Below the pieces are notes generated by a model, which saw only the letters and a list, made by a program, of their open reading frames with translations, was not told the DNA's origin and made no database searches. A program made the position numbers and the translations under genes. A stretch of DNA of 41,243 nucleotides from Alphaproteobacteria bacterium (GTDB lineage: Bacteria > Pseudomonadota > Alphaproteobacteria > GCA-2731375), in NCBI GenBank assembly GCA_030747035.1, contig JASLLM010000010.1, forward strand, positions 1 to 41,243, read 5' to 3'. This document shows positions 16,783 to 24,871 of this stretch, piece by piece. Numbering within the stretch: position 1 is the stretch's first letter; each line of letters begins with the position of its first letter.

Positions 16783-18486
16783 ATGAGCGCTGATGACGCA
16801 AGCGACGGGGGTCAACTCTCACCCGAAACCTTGAGCGCCCAGGCCCTGGGCCGGGTTGATCCCGTCAGCAAGGCGCTGATCCCATCCCTGCATCCATCGA
16901 CCACGTTCGAGCGTGACGCCGATGGCGGCTATAGCTCCGGGCGGGGCTATGCCCGGCCGCACAATCCCACCTATGACGAAGCGGAGGATCTGTTGGCCGC
17001 CTTGGAAGGCGGGCACGACTGTTTGCTGTTCGCCTCGGGCATGGCGGCGGCGAACGCGGTGTTTCAGGCGCTGTTGCCCGGCGATCACGTGGTCGCGCCC
17101 AAGGTGATGTATTGGGCCCTGCGCAAATGGCTGGTGGATTTCGCCGTCTCCTGGGGCCTGGAGGTGGAGTTCGTCGATTGCCATGACACGGCCGCCCTGG
17201 CTGCCGCCATGCGGCCGGGCAAAACGCGATTGGTCTGGCTGGAAACGCCGGCCAATCCCATGTGGACCATCACCGATATCAGGGCGGCGGCGGAGATCGC
17301 CCATGCCGCCGGCGCCCGCGTCGCGGTGGACAGCACGGTTGCCTCGCCGGTGTTGACCCGGCCCCTTGCGCTCGGCGCCGATCTGGTGGTGCATTCGGCC
17401 TCCAAATATCTGAACGGCCATGGCGATGTTCTGGCCGGCGCCGTTGTCGGCGCCAGGGACGATGGCCTGTGGCAGCGTATCCGTGCCTGGCGGCGCGACG
17501 GCGGTGCCATGCTGGGCACCTTGGAGGCCTGGTTGCTGCAGCGGGGCATGCGGACACTGTTCGTACGCGTCGCCCGTTGCTCCGAGAGTGCTTTGACCAT
17601 CGCGGAACATTTTTCGGGCCATCGGCGTATCTCCCACGTGCTCTATCCCGGCCTGCCGGGGCATCCCGGCCATGATATCGCCGCGCGCCAGATGCAGGGC
17701 GGCTTCGGCGGCATGCTGTCATTGCGGATCAGGGGCGGGGAGGACGCGGCCATGGCCGTCGCGGCATCGGTCAAGGTATTCAAGCGCGCGACCTCCCTTG
17801 GCGGTGTGGAAAGTTTGATCGAACACCGCGCCAGTATCGAAGGGCCGGCGACGCCGGTGCCGTGGGATCTGTTGCGCCTGTCCATCGGTCTGGAAAGCCC
17901 GGCCGATTTGATCGCCGATCTGGAGCAGGCGCTGGCCGCCGTGCCCGGCGAAATTCCGGCCGACGAAATTGACGAGACTGCCGAGGATACTTCTCTATCG
18001 CCCATCGAGGCCATTTTGGAAAATCATGTGGCGGCCATGGTCCGTGAACGGGGCGGCGATCTGAAAGTCCGGTCCTTTGCGGATCATGCGCTGGTGCTGG
18101 AGATGGTCGGCTCGCCAGGTGCGGCGCTCCCGCTCGAGAGCATGATCGCCAATACCGTGCGCCACTACATGCCAGAGGTGCGGGAGGTGCGCGTCCTGGC
18201 TGGGTCGGATGACCCGGTTTCCAGCGACGTTCAGAGCCTGCTGGATGAGGTGATCAATCCCGCCATTGCCGCCCATGGCGGTAATGTCGTCATGGACAGG
18301 CTTGAAGGCGGCACCCTGTTCCTGCTTTTCGAAGGCGGTTGCCAGGGCTGTGCCATGGCCGAATTGACCCTGCGCCAGGGTATCGAGCCGATCCTGGCGA
18401 AACAGATAACGGAGATTGTCGCGGTGGTCGACGAAACCGACCACGCCGCCGGCACGGCCCCTTATTTCAAGACCAAGAAAACCTGA
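16783..18486 (+). CDS. fusion: Cys/Met-metabolism PLP-dependent enzyme + degenerate NifU-like domain + NifU C-terminal domain
   Basis: PLP-fold motifs SLHPSTTFERD, FASGMAAANAVFQALLPGDHVV, VWLETPANPM, VHSASKYLNGHGDVLAGAVVG (PLP lysine); C-terminal NPAIAAHGGNVVMDRLEGGTLFLLFEGGCQGCAMAELTLRQGIEPIL. Confidence 0.92.
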   Translation: MSADDASDGGQLSPETLSAQALGRVDPVSKALIPSLHPSTTFERDADGGYSSGRGYARPHNPTYDEAEDLLAALEGGHDCLLFASGMAAANAVFQALLPGDHVVAPKVMYWALRKWLVDFAVSWGLEVEFVDCHDTAALAAAMRPGKTRLVWLETPANPMWTITDIRAAAEIAHAAGARVAVDSTVASPVLTRPLALGADLVVHSASKYLNGHGDVLAGAVVGARDDGLWQRIRAWRRDGGAMLGTLEAWLLQRGMRTLFVRVARCSESALTIAEHFSGHRRISHVLYPGLPGHPGHDIAARQMQGGFGGMLSLRIRGGEDAAMAVAASVKVFKRATSLGGVESLIEHRASIEGPATPVPWDLLRLSIGLESPADLIADLEQALAAVPGEIPADEIDETAEDTSLSPIEAILENHVAAMVRERGGDLKVRSFADHALVLEMVGSPGAALPLESMIANTVRHYMPEVREVRVLAGSDDPVSSDVQSLLDEVINPAIAAHGGNVVMDRLEGGTLFLLFEGGCQGCAMAELTLRQGIEPILAKQITEIVAVVDETDHAAGTAPYFKTKKT

Positions 18487-18502: not shown

Positions 18503-19156
18503 CTACAATTGGTCTAGATAGTCGCGCCAGATACTGAAATTCAGGCTGTCCCGGGCCGGTGCTTCCGGGCCCCAGACCTCCCGTGCCGTGAAACGGACGC
18601 CATAGACCGCCTGTGGGCCGCGCGCCTTGGCCTCTTCCCCATCGCCTTCAACTTCGGGAAAGGTGAAATCGCCCAGGCGGCTGACCACGACACCTCTCCT
18701 GCCGCGCAGAAACAGGGGCAGATGGGCATGGCCGACGGGTTCCACATCACGCACCCGAACTTGATCACCGATGGCGAAATCATCGCCGGGAGTTTCGGCC
18801 GCCCGCATCTCGGCCAGCTTGGCGTCTAGCTCATCCCGGCTCAGCAGGCCTTTTTCCACCAGCAGGTTTTCGCAGGCCGTCTGCCACAGGACGGCGTAAT
18901 TCTTGTTGATGCTCTTGCCGTCGCCGCTCAGCACCGCCTCGGCCGCCTCCGCCTCGGCGTCGGAAAGGTCGTAATGTCCGGGTGGCGAAATCTGCACGCT
19001 GAATTTGTCGACCCATTCCGGCCAGTCGTAATGTCCCTTTTCGTGCAGCTTCATGACCATGGCGATGCTGCGCGCCGCGGCCAGATGGGCATACTTTTCG
19101 CCGTCATCCTCCCGGATCAACTGTGCCAGATCCACCTCGTCCTGTGCATCACTCAT
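18503..19156 (-). CDS. full-length nitrile hydratase beta-subunit-like paralogue (probably non-catalytic)
   Basis: VRVRDVEPVGHAHLPLFLRGRRGVVV..YGVRFTAREVWGPEAPARDSLNFSIWRDYLDQL; N-half ARSIAMVMKLHEKGHYDWPEWVD. Confidence 0.85.
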   Translation of the reverse strand: MSDAQDEVDLAQLIREDDGEKYAHLAAARSIAMVMKLHEKGHYDWPEWVDKFSVQISPPGHYDLSDAEAEAAEAVLSGDGKSINKNYAVLWQTACENLLVEKGLLSRDELDAKLAEMRAAETPGDDFAIGDQVRVRDVEPVGHAHLPLFLRGRRGVVVSRLGDFTFPEVEGDGEEAKARGPQAVYGVRFTAREVWGPEAPARDSLNFSIWRDYLDQL

Positions 19157-19173
19157 TTCGCATCTCCACGGTC

Positions 19174-19890
19174 TTAAGCCGGTTGCAACTGGTAATCCCA
19201 AAGATTGAAGTGAACGTTGTGGCTGCCTTCCCCCCAGATATCGGAAGCCGCGAACTGTACGCAATAGACGTGCTGCAGGATGTCGGTGTCGGCGTGGTCA
19301 TGATTGTGAGCGTGATCGTGTCCGTGACTTACCATTTCAGGGAACATGTACAGACCCTTGTCGCTCTCCACCTCGCCCGTTATGCCGCGCAGGTAAAGCG
19401 GCAGATGGGTATGGCCTTCCCGTTTGATCTCGCGCACCGTCACCCGCTGGCCGGCTTGGAAGCGTGGGCCCCCGCGCTCCGCCTTGGCGAAGGCGGCGAC
19501 GCGTGCATCCAACTCGGCCTTGGGCACCAGATGCATGGCGTCCAACAACTGCTCGGCCGCCGCCTGCCAATAATGGTAATACCTCGCACCGTCACTTTCG
19601 CATTCGGCCAAAAAGCGGCTGTAGTTCGCGCCCGCATGGCTCTCGTCCGCCGCTTCGTCCGCGGGCTTGTCATCGCCGCCGAAATGTCCGGGCGCCTGGA
19701 TGTGATAACCCAGATAGTCGTCCCATTCAGCCCAGCTGTAATGGCCGTCCTGGTACAGGGACATCACCATGGCAAAGGTATGACCCTGCCAGGGTTCGTC
19801 GAAGACCGGATCGCCGCGATCGCGCGGCAGGGCGGCACCGGCCTGTTGTTCGGGCACGGCCAGGTCCGGTACCGTCAGCATCTTACGCAT
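19174..19890 (-). CDS. full-length nitrile hydratase beta-subunit-like paralogue with His-rich insert
   Basis: VFDEPWQGHTFAMVMSLYQDGHYSWAEWDDYLGYHIQA; GQRVTVREIKREGHTHLPLYLRGITGEV; SHGHDHAHNHDHADTD; FAASDIWGEGSHNVHFNLWDYQL. Confidence 0.85.
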   Translation of the reverse strand: MRKMLTVPDLAVPEQQAGAALPRDRGDPVFDEPWQGHTFAMVMSLYQDGHYSWAEWDDYLGYHIQAPGHFGGDDKPADEAADESHAGANYSRFLAECESDGARYYHYWQAAAEQLLDAMHLVPKAELDARVAAFAKAERGGPRFQAGQRVTVREIKREGHTHLPLYLRGITGEVESDKGLYMFPEMVSHGHDHAHNHDHADTDILQHVYCVQFAASDIWGEGSHNVHFNLWDYQLQPA

Positions 19891-20236
19891 GGTCGAGATA
19901 ATCTTCCCAAAGGTCGATATTCAGGCAGTCCGTGGCCGGTGCGTCGCCACCCCAAAGCTCCCGGGCCTCGAAACGGATGGAGTAATTGTGCTGCGGCTGA
20001 TCGCCGTCTCCCGCGACGCGGGCGTCAGGCAAATGGAAGACGCCGTTGTCACGCCGCACCACGCCTTCCTTACCGCGGACATAGCGGGGCAGACGGGTAT
20101 GGCCGGTCGGATTGATGTTGCGCGCCAGGACTCGGTCGCCGGGTTTGAATTTAGGCTCGATGTCCATTTTCAGGCGTACCGCGCCGGCTTTCTGGTACAG
20201 CCGGTTTACAACCTCGAGATCGACTTTACGGGTCAT
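19883..20236 (-). CDS. nitrile hydratase beta C-terminal-half-like subunit (stand-alone)
   Basis: FKPGDRVLARNINPTGHTRLPRYVRGKEGVV..YSIRFEARELWGGDAPATDCLNIDLWEDYLDHA; ATGA overlap at 20233-20236. Confidence 0.87.
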   Translation of the reverse strand: MTRKVDLEVVNRLYQKAGAVRLKMDIEPKFKPGDRVLARNINPTGHTRLPRYVRGKEGVVRRDNGVFHLPDARVAGDGDQPQHNYSIRFEARELWGGDAPATDCLNIDLWEDYLDHA

Positions 20237-20544
20237 GATGTCTCTCCGCGCAGATCGGCCAGCCGAGCGTCGAACTCGGCCTGGCTGACCACGCCCTTTT
20301 CCAACAGCAAGGTGATGCTGCCTTCCAGCCAGCGTTCGTAATAGCTCGAGGTCAGATAATATGACGGCTCGATCCGTTCCATGGCGTGGCGGAATTCATC
20401 TAAATTGAAATGCATGCCGGCCAGCAGGGCGCGGGCCAGGGCCAGGGTGCGCCCTTCCCATTCCTCGTGAAAAACCACATCGTCCGATTCCGTTTTGATC
20501 GGGCCCAGACCATGCATGCCGCCCATGTCATGTACACCGTTCAT
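20233..20544 (-). CDS. nitrile hydratase beta N-terminal-half-like subunit, copy B
   Basis: MNGVHDMGGMHGLGPI..FHEEWEGRTLALARALLAGMHFNLDEFRHAMERIEPSYYLTSSYYERWLEGSITLLLEKG. Confidence 0.88.
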   Translation of the reverse strand: MNGVHDMGGMHGLGPIKTESDDVVFHEEWEGRTLALARALLAGMHFNLDEFRHAMERIEPSYYLTSSYYERWLEGSITLLLEKGVVSQAEFDARLADLRGETS

Positions 20545-20864
20545 GCGGGTTCTCCGTTCTGTTCCGTGCTCAGATCGGCCAGCCGGGCGTCCAGTTCCGC
20601 CTGGCTGAACACGCCCTTTTCCAACAGCAAGGTCATGGTACCTTCCAGCCAATGTTCGTAATAGCTTGAGCCCAGATAGTGGGCCGGCGCCATGCGTTCG
20701 ATGGCATAGCGGAATTCATCTACGCTGAACTGAAAGCCCGCCATCATCGCATTGACCAGCCCCATGGTCCGCCGCTCCCACTCCTCATGGAATTGCGGCG
20801 CATCCACGGTTTCCATGATCGTGCCGAAACCATGCATGCCGCCCATGTCATGTATGCCGTTCAT
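20251..20864. repeat. tandem direct duplication of the beta N-half genes (20251-20544 vs 20571-20864, offset 320 bp)
   Basis: Near-colinear DNA, e.g. CAGATCGGCCAGCCG.GCGTC..ACGCCCTTTTCCAACAGCAAGGT in both copies; about 64% amino-acid identity by hand alignment. Confidence 0.85.
20541..20864 (-). CDS. nitrile hydratase beta N-terminal-half-like subunit, copy A
   Basis: MNGIHDMGGMHGFGTI..FHEEWERRTMGLVNAMMAGFQFSVDEFRYAIERMAPAHYLGSSYYEHWLEGTMTLLLEKG; ATGA overlap with copy B. Confidence 0.88.
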   Translation of the reverse strand: MNGIHDMGGMHGFGTIMETVDAPQFHEEWERRTMGLVNAMMAGFQFSVDEFRYAIERMAPAHYLGSSYYEHWLEGTMTLLLEKGVFSQAELDARLADLSTEQNGEPA

Positions 20865-20876
20865 GGCGAGGCCTCC

Positions 20877-21479
20877 CTAATCCGGTGGCGCCACCTTGGT
20901 GACGCCGATCATCGAGTCTCGCGTCACCAGTTTGGCCAGGGCCTCGGCATCCAGGCCGTCCGTCCCCGTGGGCCGTTCGGGCAGCACCATGTAGCGCAGC
21001 TCGGCATTGGAGTCCCAGACCCGTACTTCTGTATCGGCGCCGATTTCGGTGCCGAATTCCGCCAATACACCGCGCGGATCGGAGGCCGCCCGAGAGCGGA
21101 ATGGGGCCGATTTATACCATACGGGGGGCAGCCCCAGGGTTGCCCAAGGGAAGCAGGAACAGAGCGTACAGACAACGATGTTATGTACCTGAGGGGTATT
21201 TTCGACTACCACCATGTCTTCGCCCTGCACCGCGTCGAACCCCATGTCCGCGATCGCACCGGTGCCGTCCTGCAGCAGCCAGGCCTTGTATTCCGGATCC
21301 GTCCAGGCCCGCGCCACCACCTGCGCCCCGTTCCAGGGACCAAGGCGGTTTTCGAACATATCGATCAGGGCATCGATGGCGCTGCTTTCGACCAGGCCTT
21401 TTTCCAGCAGCAAGGATTCCATGGCCTTGACCCGCAAGGCCACCTCCGAGTCCGGTCCAGGAATGCCGTCTGAGCTCAT
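20877..21479 (-). CDS. nitrile hydratase alpha / thiocyanate hydrolase gamma-like subunit, cobalt-type
   Basis: [67 protein letters not shown] metal motif at 21153-21170; start 21479 or 21494. Confidence 0.93.
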
Positions 21480-21610: not shown

Positions 21611-22867
21611 ATGACTTTGTCGAGCATGGAAGAACTGAACGAGCCATTGCAGTGGCCGGAACCGGGGGTAACGCGGATTCCCTATCGGGTCTATTCGGAT
21701 CCGGTGATCTACGCGCTGGAGCAGCAGCGGATCTTTCGCGGTCCGGTCTGGAATTTCCTCTGCCTGGAAATCGATATACCAAATTCCGGTGACTACAAGA
21801 CCTCCACGGTCGGTGAAATCCCTATCATCGTCACCCGGGACGACGACGGCGAAATCCACGCCATGGTCAACCGTTGCCCCCACAAGGGCGCCCTGGTCTG
21901 CCTGAAGGAGCGCGGCAACGCCAAGATGCTGACCTGCATCTATCATTCCTGGTCCTTCGACATGGCCGGCAAGCTAAAGGGCATCGCCTTCCGCAACGGT
22001 CTGGGCGGCAAGGGCGGGTTGCCCAAGGAATTCGATCCGGAGAAACATGGTCTGGAGCTGTTGCGCATCGAGGTTTTTTGCGGCCTGGTCTTCGGCACCT
22101 TTTCCGAGGCGACGCCGTCTGTGGAAAGTTACCTTGGCCAGCCCATGTCTAAGTTCATCCGCCGCAACTTGGGCAGGCCGCTAAAGCCCCTGGGCATGCA
22201 CAGTCAGATCATCCACAATAATTGGAAACTGTATGCCGAGAATGTGCGGGATTCCTATCACGCCACATTGCTGCATACGTTTTACACCACCTTCAAGATC
22301 AACCGCCTGGACATGGATGGCGGCATCGTCCTGGCCGAGGACAAATGGCATCACATCAGTTATGCCAAGCGCGAGACCTTCGAGGAGGCGGAGGAATACC
22401 AGCGGGACAAGATCCACGCGGCGCAATACGATTCCCACCTTGAAGGGCCGCATCTCTTGAATGCCTGGAACGAATTCGATGACGGCATCACCCATTCCAT
22501 CCAGGCGATTTTTCCCAACCTGGCGATCCAGTTCACCCTGAATTCCCTGGCCGTGCGTTTCTTCGTCCCCCGAGGCGTCGATAAGACGGAATTGTTCTGG
22601 TTCTATGTCGGCTACGAAGACGATACGGAAGAAAAAACGGCCATGCGGGTGATGCAGGGCAATCTGACCGGCGCCGCCGGCCTGGTCTCGTTGGAGGACG
22701 GCTGCATCAACGAATTCGTCCAGCGCGGCACCCACGGCAGCGAAGGGTCAATGGGCCTGGCCGAGATGGGCGGTGGGTCGGTGGAATCCTCTGACAGCAG
22801 CCGCGCCACCGAGGCCGCGATCCGCGGCTTCTGGACCGGCTATCGCCGGATCATGGAGTTCGATTGA
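21611..22867 (+). CDS. Rieske [2Fe-2S] aromatic ring-hydroxylating dioxygenase, alpha subunit
   Basis: [38 protein letters not shown] (CxH..CxxH Rieske); iron-site [12 protein letters not shown]. Confidence 0.95.
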
Positions 22868-22868
22868 T

Positions 22869-23324
22869 ATGGAGGCGATCGAGGAGTTGATCACCGCTTA
22901 TGCCCACGATATCGACGACGGCGTGTTGGACGGCTGGCCCGAATACTTTACCGAGGACGGCAGCTACACCGTGCTGACCCGCGAGAACCTGGCCCAGGAC
23001 CTGCCCATGGGCATCATGTATTGCCAGGGCCGGGGCATGATGGCGGATCGTATCAAGGCCATGCAGACGGCCAATATTTTTGAGGCCCATACCTATTGCC
23101 ATCTGCTGGGCCGCAGCCGGATTGAGCCGGATGGCGATGGCCGATATCGCGCCCGCACCAATTTCAACGTCATCCGCACCATGCAGGACGGCGCCTCGGA
23201 AATGTTCGCGGTGGGCAAGTATCTCGACGTGATCGAGGTCCGAGACGGCAAACCGCTGTTCAGGGAACGCAGGGTGGTGTTGGAATCCCGCCGTGTCGAT
23301 ATTCTTTTGGTCTATCCGTTGTAG
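22869..23324 (+). CDS. aromatic ring-hydroxylating dioxygenase, beta subunit
   Basis: Follows alpha by 1 nt; DDGVLDGWPEYFTEDGSYTVLTREN.., NFNVIRTMQDGASEMFAVGKYLDVIE (NTF2-like beta subunit). Confidence 0.92.
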   Translation: MEAIEELITAYAHDIDDGVLDGWPEYFTEDGSYTVLTRENLAQDLPMGIMYCQGRGMMADRIKAMQTANIFEAHTYCHLLGRSRIEPDGDGRYRARTNFNVIRTMQDGASEMFAVGKYLDVIEVRDGKPLFRERRVVLESRRVDILLVYPL

Positions 23325-23335
23325 AGGAGCCGGAC

Positions 23336-24127
23336 GTGTCTCTGGACAGCTATTACAAGGATCACTGGGTCGAAATTGAGCCCGAGCGGCTGGAGCGTTA
23401 CGAGGCGCAATTCATCCTTGGCAATCGCGGCGACAGGTTGCTGGCGCCGGCCGATATCGCGGCCGAGCAGGTGGTGGCCGACTACGGCTGTGGCCCGGGC
23501 TATCTATCGGTGGAGCTGGCTAACCGCGTGGGTCCGATGGGTCATGTGCATGCTTTTGACATCAACGCCGATTTTGTCGAACGCACCAGAAAACGGGTGG
23601 CTGACGAGGGCCTGGCGGAGCGGGTCACGGTAACCCATCTGGAAAGCGATATGCTGCCCCTGGATGATGACTGTCTGGACCGCCTGGTGATCAAGAATGT
23701 CCTGGTCTATGTGGATGATCCCCTCGCCAGCCTACGTGAATTCCGCCGGGCGGTCAGGCCGGGCGGCAAGGTGCATGCCATCGACAGCGATTTCTACATG
23801 GCGGCGTTTGATCCCATTGACATCGACGATTGGCGCCATGTTCTGGATGCGGGCATCCATGCCTTCCGCACCCCGGCCATCGGTCGCAAGATGTACGGCA
23901 TCGCCCTGGGTGCCGGGTTCAGCGAGGTTGCGGTGGAGGTCGTCGCCGTGCCGGACTTCACCGGCCGCATGCTCAGCTTTATCATTAACACCGCCGGCTA
24001 TGCCCGCGAAGGCGGCCGGCATGACGAGGCGGTGGTTAGCCGCGTTGTGGAGGTGGCCAGCAGGGCAGTCGAGGAGGGCACATTCTTCGCCCTGAACCCG
24101 CAGTTCCTCGTGACGGCGACGGTGTAG
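23336..24127 (+). CDS. class I SAM-dependent methyltransferase
   Basis: GTG start; VVADYGCGPGYLSVELANRVGPMGHVHAFDIN, LREFRRAVRPGGKVHAIDSD. Confidence 0.9.
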   Translation: MSLDSYYKDHWVEIEPERLERYEAQFILGNRGDRLLAPADIAAEQVVADYGCGPGYLSVELANRVGPMGHVHAFDINADFVERTRKRVADEGLAERVTVTHLESDMLPLDDDCLDRLVIKNVLVYVDDPLASLREFRRAVRPGGKVHAIDSDFYMAAFDPIDIDDWRHVLDAGIHAFRTPAIGRKMYGIALGAGFSEVAVEVVAVPDFTGRMLSFIINTAGYAREGGRHDEAVVSRVVEVASRAVEEGTFFALNPQFLVTATV

Positions 24128-24130
24128 ATC

Positions 24131-24871
24131 ATGGCGGTGACGGTCACATTTGTCGGCGCGGGCGATGCCTTCGGCAGCGGCGGACGCTTCAACACCTGCA
24201 TCATGGTGGATGGCGCCGGCGTGCGTTTCACCATTGATTTCGGCGCCACCTCGTTAACCGCCCTGAACAAACTGGGCATCGCGCACAATTCCATCGATGC
24301 CGTGCTCTTGACCCATATGCACGGCGACCATTTTGGCGGTCTGCCGTTCATGCTCTTGGATGCCATGCTGGGCGCCAAGCGGGACCGGCCCCTAACCATC
24401 GCCGGGCCGAAAAATCTCGAGGCGCGTATCGGCGCGGCCCTTGATGCGCTGTTCCCCGGCTCCTCCGCCAGGGCGGCGAAATTCCCCATCAACTATGTCG
24501 AATTGGCGGTGGGCCAGGCCAACGATGTCCTTGGCCTGACGGTGACGCCGGTAGCGGCGAAGCATACCCCCCAGACCGACCCAACGGCCCTGCGGGTAGC
24601 GGTGGACGACAAGATCGTGAGCTATTCGGGCGATGGCGAATGGACGCCGGAATTGACCCAGGCCAGCCGGGATGCGGATCTGTTCATTGCCGAGTGCTAT
24701 TTTCATGACAGGGCGGTCAAGGGCCATATGAGTTATCCCGATATTCAGGCCAACAGGGCGGCTTTCGCTGCCAAGCGCATGATCCTTACCCATCTGGGCC
24801 CCGACATGCTGGCCAACCGGGAAGACGTGGAGGATGATTGCGCCGAGGACGGCCTGGTCATCACATTATGA
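24131..24871 (+). CDS. MBL-fold metallo-hydrolase (RNase Z-like subfamily)
   Basis: FVGAGDAFGSGGRFNTCIMVD, LLTHMHGDHFGGLP (HxHxDH), YSGDGEWTPEL, ILTHLGPDM. Confidence 0.92.
   Translation: MAVTVTFVGAGDAFGSGGRFNTCIMVDGAGVRFTIDFGATSLTALNKLGIAHNSIDAVLLTHMHGDHFGGLPFMLLDAMLGAKRDRPLTIAGPKNLEARIGAALDALFPGSSARAAKFPINYVELAVGQANDVLGLTVTPVAAKHTPQTDPTALRVAVDDKIVSYSGDGEWTPELTQASRDADLFIAECYFHDRAVKGHMSYPDIQANRAAFAAKRMILTHLGPDMLANREDVEDDCAEDGLVITL

Follow-up and report, generated by a model that had tools for sequence, protein, structure and literature searches.

Full-length beta-like proteins beside a split-beta nitrile hydratase resemble activators with a beta-type C-domain and are probable maturation chaperones

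The window analyzed here, 41,243 nucleotides in length, is a single contig from a draft genome that totals 4.3 Mb in 351 contigs. Six tightly spaced genes on its minus strand code for a nitrile hydratase (NHase) alpha subunit, two N-halves of a split beta subunit (betaN-1 and betaN-2), a beta C-half (betaC), and two proteins of full beta length, FL1 and FL2 (Table 1). From alpha through FL1, adjacent genes overlap or lie about a dozen bases apart; FL1 and FL2 are both real open reading frames, and FL2 starts with the ATG at 19156. Against the thiocyanate hydrolase (SCNase) gamma model TIGR03887, the alpha-like subunit scores 172.5, below the cut-off of 291.5. Purifying selection is stronger on betaN-2 (dN/dS 0.04 to 0.07) than on betaN-1 (0.11 to 0.25), which would make betaN-2 the likelier catalytic partner.

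The betaN tandem duplicate (20233-20864) was seen in three members of the genus only (G000, G001 and G005). Convergent with the operon, positions 16783-18486 encode a cystathionine gamma-synthase-type PLP enzyme fused to a NifU domain, and this fusion also adjoins the NHase operon in G001 and G005. Divergent from the operon, positions 21611-24871 encode the alpha subunit of a Rieske ring-hydroxylating oxygenase and a SnoaL/small-subunit protein, together with a methyltransferase and a metallo-beta-lactamase-fold protein.

Table 1. Position of the NHase genes, claw-contact residues and His-rich loop in the window, and of genes in related loci
Feature	Position	Strand	Basis or remark
NHase alpha subunit, cobalt claw VCTLCSC	20877..21479	-	TIGR01323, 301 bits (cut-off 250)
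betaN-1, beta N-half, site-1 Arg kept (SVDEFR)	20541..20864	-	PF21006, 126 bits
betaN-2, beta N-half, site-1 Arg kept (NLDEFR)	20233..20544	-	PF21006, 128 bits
betaC, beta C-half, site-2 Arg kept (GHTRLP)	19883..20236	-	PF02211, 112 bits
FL1, activator-type N-domain and beta-type C-domain, 238 aa	19174..19890	-	TIGR03889, 53.5 bits (cut-off 46)
FL2, second activator-type N-domain and beta-type C-domain, 217 aa	18503..19156	-	TIGR03889, 45.1 (cut-off 46); PF02211, 80 bits
FL1 Asp57, at the beta Arg52/56 site (site 1)	19720..19722	-	Alignment of relatives; profile-to-PDB alignment
FL1 His162, at the beta Arg141/149/157 site (site 2)	19405..19407	-	Alignment of relatives; profile-to-PDB alignment
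FL2 Val49, at site 1	19010..19012	-	Alignment of relatives
FL2 His145, at site 2	18722..18724	-	Alignment of relatives and solved betas
FL1 His-rich loop HGHDHAHNHDH, inside the C-domain, candidate metal-binding segment	19294..19326	-	
Adenosine deaminase gene	L047 9237-10244		
Adenosine deaminase gene	L048 9173-10186		
Adenosine deaminase gene	L051 6913-7926		
Adenosine deaminase gene	L053 5951-6964		
Stand-alone activator with His-rich tail	L009 6282-6659		
Stand-alone activator with His-rich tail	L011 6336-6806		
Stand-alone activator with His-rich tail	L090 1106-1492		
Stand-alone activator with His-rich tail	L097 741-1277		

The original prediction was that FL1 and FL2 lack both of the arginines through which beta contacts the oxidized cysteines of the alpha claw, and that the split halves of beta retain them; alignments across relatives confirm this for all four residues and for the split-beta controls (Table 1). 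For site 1 of FL1, the profile-to-PDB alignment that pairs Asp57 with beta residue 52 of the P. putida NHase (3qyg_B) is weak, at about 6 bits; read directly, FL1 runs without a gap against betaN-2 of the window from PVF..W up to the site. At site 2, both histidines fall on the Arg of GHTRMP in P. putida and on Arg157 of P. thermophila, the latter counted from the printed 7w8m alignment.

The replacement is general. Among the aligned relatives, site 1 is Arg in 63 of 63 beta N-domains and in none of the 40 members of the activator class, a class that includes one truncated FL2 (from G325); a motif count over a larger set gave 104 of 104 betas versus 0 of 83 stand-alone activators. The 19 FL proteins carry Asp (14, that is, every FL1) or Val (5, all FL2) at this site, and never Arg. 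Site 2 is Arg in all 60 beta C-domains and His in all 18 alignable FL proteins, the nineteenth reading PDHLP. The replacement is not due to chance. We also considered a compensating Arg at a shifted position, and found none conserved near either site in eight diverged FL1s. The two absences differ in what they tell: that at site 1 is expected for the chaperone class, while that at site 2 is new information.

The N-halves point to the class in question. That of FL1 scores above the cut-off of TIGR03889 (nitrile hydratase accessory protein, or Co-type NHase activator), and 12 of 12 FL1 orthologues match the TIGR03889 and TIGR03888 models. FL2 is borderline for TIGR03889, reaching 48 in a six-frame search, with relatives at 38.8 to 46.0. 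Against the beta model TIGR03888 (cut-off 152.2), FL1 (76.5) and FL2 (90.9) both fall far short, their similarity to beta being weak, as in Co-type activators. In place of xxDEFR, the FL proteins carry W-x-x-W, the activator signature. A tree of 122 N-domains separated the FL proteins and the activators from all betas (SH-aLRT 99%), and the same split was recovered at 97% once the motif columns were removed. The view of FL1 and FL2 as full-length betas that lost their arginines is thus not sustained: their N-halves belong with the activator lineage, which never has the site-1 Arg, and it is from this lineage, not by loss from a full-length beta, that they lack it. By sequence, FL1 and FL2 are activators of the P14K/NhlE type (TIGR03889) bearing a beta-type C-domain, itself changed from Arg to His.

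FL1 and FL2 cluster together by their C-domains (99% in the C-domain tree), and the simplest reading is therefore a single two-domain ancestor that would predate the FL1/FL2 duplication. As to the source of this domain, topology tests rejected neither a grouping with the local split betaC (p-AU 0.86) nor a placement beside the beta C-domains that diverge most, apart from all others (p-AU 0.75); an earlier rejection of the local origin (p 0.0001) was discarded, as it had omitted two unsplit betas that nest within the local clade. In the same tree, the unsplit beta of an alphaproteobacterial metagenome-assembled genome, CAJXFT (L043 5322-5978), nests among split-beta sequences, which suggests either re-fusion or repeated splitting. 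FL1 and FL2 are under purifying selection (dN/dS about 0.11 to 0.17), and this rules out gene decay or pseudogenes. Single-chain AlphaFold2 models built from seven-row alignments were poor (pLDDT 57 for FL1 and 60 for FL2); Foldseek gave an NHase beta as the top match of the FL1 model (E 3e-8, TM about 0.33), of which only the C-domain is credible, with no residue geometry readable.

Gene order was compared across genomes. The series alpha-betaN-betaC-FL1 is present in 11 of 11 genomes of the genus; G209 and G325, from two other genera of the class, have alpha-betaN-betaC-FL1-FL2, and CAJXFT has alpha-unsplit beta-FL1-FL2. In all of these, FL1 directly follows the beta genes, in the slot of an activator, and no separate activator was matched within the operon. 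The smallest operons consist of alpha, betaN, betaC and FL1 only. Two further NHase loci lie in the window's own genome: C317, where an ordinary beta is accompanied by a stand-alone activator, and C320, where only alpha and beta matched. A second locus of G209 (L108 1196-3608) is a run of consecutive genes for an unsplit beta, alpha, betaN, betaC and a stand-alone activator. The two-domain activator architecture is rare: in a class sample, 84 of 387 genomes had an activator match, and full-length FL1-type matches were confined to three genera, one further assembly also having them; in a phylum sample, 51 of 399 genomes had an activator match, and the FL1 profile matched at E 1e-20 in the window's own genome only. 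Wherever present, full-length FL1-type proteins score 1e-115 or better. In four of eight inspected genus members without FL2, the gene immediately upstream of NHase alpha, in the same orientation, encodes an adenosine deaminase (Table 1; TIGR01430 above cut-off in both genes tested), and a nitrile-bearing nucleoside or base is one possibility for the substrate.

The FL proteins combine features of several known systems. With the Co-type activators, or self-subunit-swapping chaperones (NhlE, NhhG and P14K), they share the N-domain family, the slot after the structural genes and the lack of a site-1 Arg. They differ from them in the complete C-domain with its Arg-to-His change and, for FL1, in the internal His-rich loop and in Asp instead of Ala or Val at site 1. 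Described swapping chaperones are smaller than 17 kDa and without known metal-binding motifs (PMC3511329); FL1 and FL2, with their PF02211 C-domain, exceed the length of such single-domain proteins, and most FL1s have the loop. With NHase beta (TIGR03888, PF21006 plus PF02211) they share the two-domain layout and the C-domain fold family, but not the claw arginines or the type of N-domain. No Co-type activator among solved structures turned up in our sequence searches.

Split beta halves beside alpha are also found in the three-subunit NHases AnhDEA of Streptomyces canus and ToyJKL of S. rimosus, and in thiocyanate hydrolase. In S. canus, the betaN protein AnhD also acts as a chaperone (PMC7329996) and there is no activator gene, whereas here the operon encodes one or two additional chaperone-like proteins of full length. 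The NHase loci of Aminobacter MSH1 pUSP2 and Agrobacterium tumefaciens pAtAF1_95 have the order alpha, betaN, betaC, activator and a His-rich activator tail; unlike in the window, the activator there is single-domain and is followed by CbtB/CbtA genes. Stretches with at least 6 His in 25 residues occur in 8 of 14 FL1s (within the C-domain) and are absent from every FL2 and from all 90 beta or betaC proteins. Among stand-alone activators, His-rich tails are found in 4 of 12 encoded beside split betas versus 0 of 57 beside unsplit ones (Fisher p 6e-4, a value that ignores relatedness, two of the four belonging to one genus).

We consider it likely that FL1 serves as a maturation chaperone, as FL2 probably does too, acting in cobalt loading and subunit swapping for the adjacent cobalt NHase of alpha and split beta. 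An FL protein would take the position of beta on apo-alpha during cobalt insertion and the oxidation of two claw cysteines, the His-rich loop of FL1 perhaps helping to supply the metal. R52 and R157 of beta are proposed to form salt bridges to the two oxidized alpha cysteines and thereby to drive subunit swapping (PMC7193024), and alpha(P14K)2 is expected to be without them, P14K being shorter and having no Arg (PMC4709657). With no Arg at either claw position, the FL proteins would likewise form no such gripping bridges, so that mature alpha would pass to betaN and betaC, which carry both arginines. The support observed here lies in sequence, residues, domain classes, operon position and selection, from which we infer binding to alpha, cobalt delivery and release. 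Against this reading count the size of FL1 and its loop, given the described chaperones; the loop threshold reached in just 8 of 14 FL1s and no FL2; the scores of FL2, which barely reach or narrowly miss the activator cut-off; and the stand-alone activator of C317, which might act in trans. As a more specific and rather speculative version, FL1 may be a full-size decoy beta, covering alpha as beta does, delivering cobalt through its own loop, and expelling matured alpha because an acidic Asp (in 14 of 14) replaces the gripping Arg. Were this so, hand-over would be set by the two positions and not by the length of the activator.

A division of labor between the two proteins is conceivable, though we hold it to be the less probable arrangement: cobalt activation would fall to FL1, and FL2 would have a role of its own, such as pairing with FL1 in a heterodimer or acting as chaperone for the second betaN. 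FL2 is found only beside FL1 and has no His-rich loop, and among the eleven genus members it is restricted to three, the same three in which betaN is duplicated; however, G209, G325 and CAJXFT carry FL2 with no betaN duplicate.

It is very unlikely that FL1, FL2 or both are alternative catalytic betas that pair with alpha, using Asp or Val plus His for the arginines and having altered chemistry or substrate range. Both beta domains are present, FL1 on direct reading keeps the Tyr-Tyr segment, and the beta arginines are not strictly required in all NHases: the alpha subunit ToyJ of a three-subunit NHase is reported, in the account that PMC7329996 gives of Nelp 2014, to be active without any beta, so that loss of Arg is by itself weak evidence, and no proof, of non-catalysis. 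The N-domain is, however, of the activator lineage, and every operon seen has, next to the FL genes, a regular beta set that carries both arginines; the Tyr-Tyr segment is common to activators and so does not discriminate, and we dropped it as a catalytic marker. The catalytic role is best given to alpha together with the split beta, as originally predicted. The separate non-catalytic ring also proposed at that time, in which the FL proteins would be structural or regulatory subunits of the mature enzyme, is the least probable reading: they are co-encoded, conserved and present in two copies in some operons, but we found nothing in its support and no precedent in the literature examined, the activator-type N-domain and gene position point to maturation, and the smallest operons hold FL1 with no other activator matched. 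The proposal that the full-length copies are assembly or metallochaperone proteins fits both their N-domain and their slot in the operon.

Until now, the hand-over of alpha has been explained by two arginines of beta that have no counterpart in activators through the shorter length of the latter. The FL proteins are a chaperone-like family in which the missing domain is restored while another residue still stands in for the arginine, a pattern that suggests selection against the arginines; an extra domain without Arg is what would be expected of a chaperone that has to release oxidized alpha. They offer a natural system in which arginine-driven swapping could be tested by point mutation, and a two-domain activator might prove easier to study.
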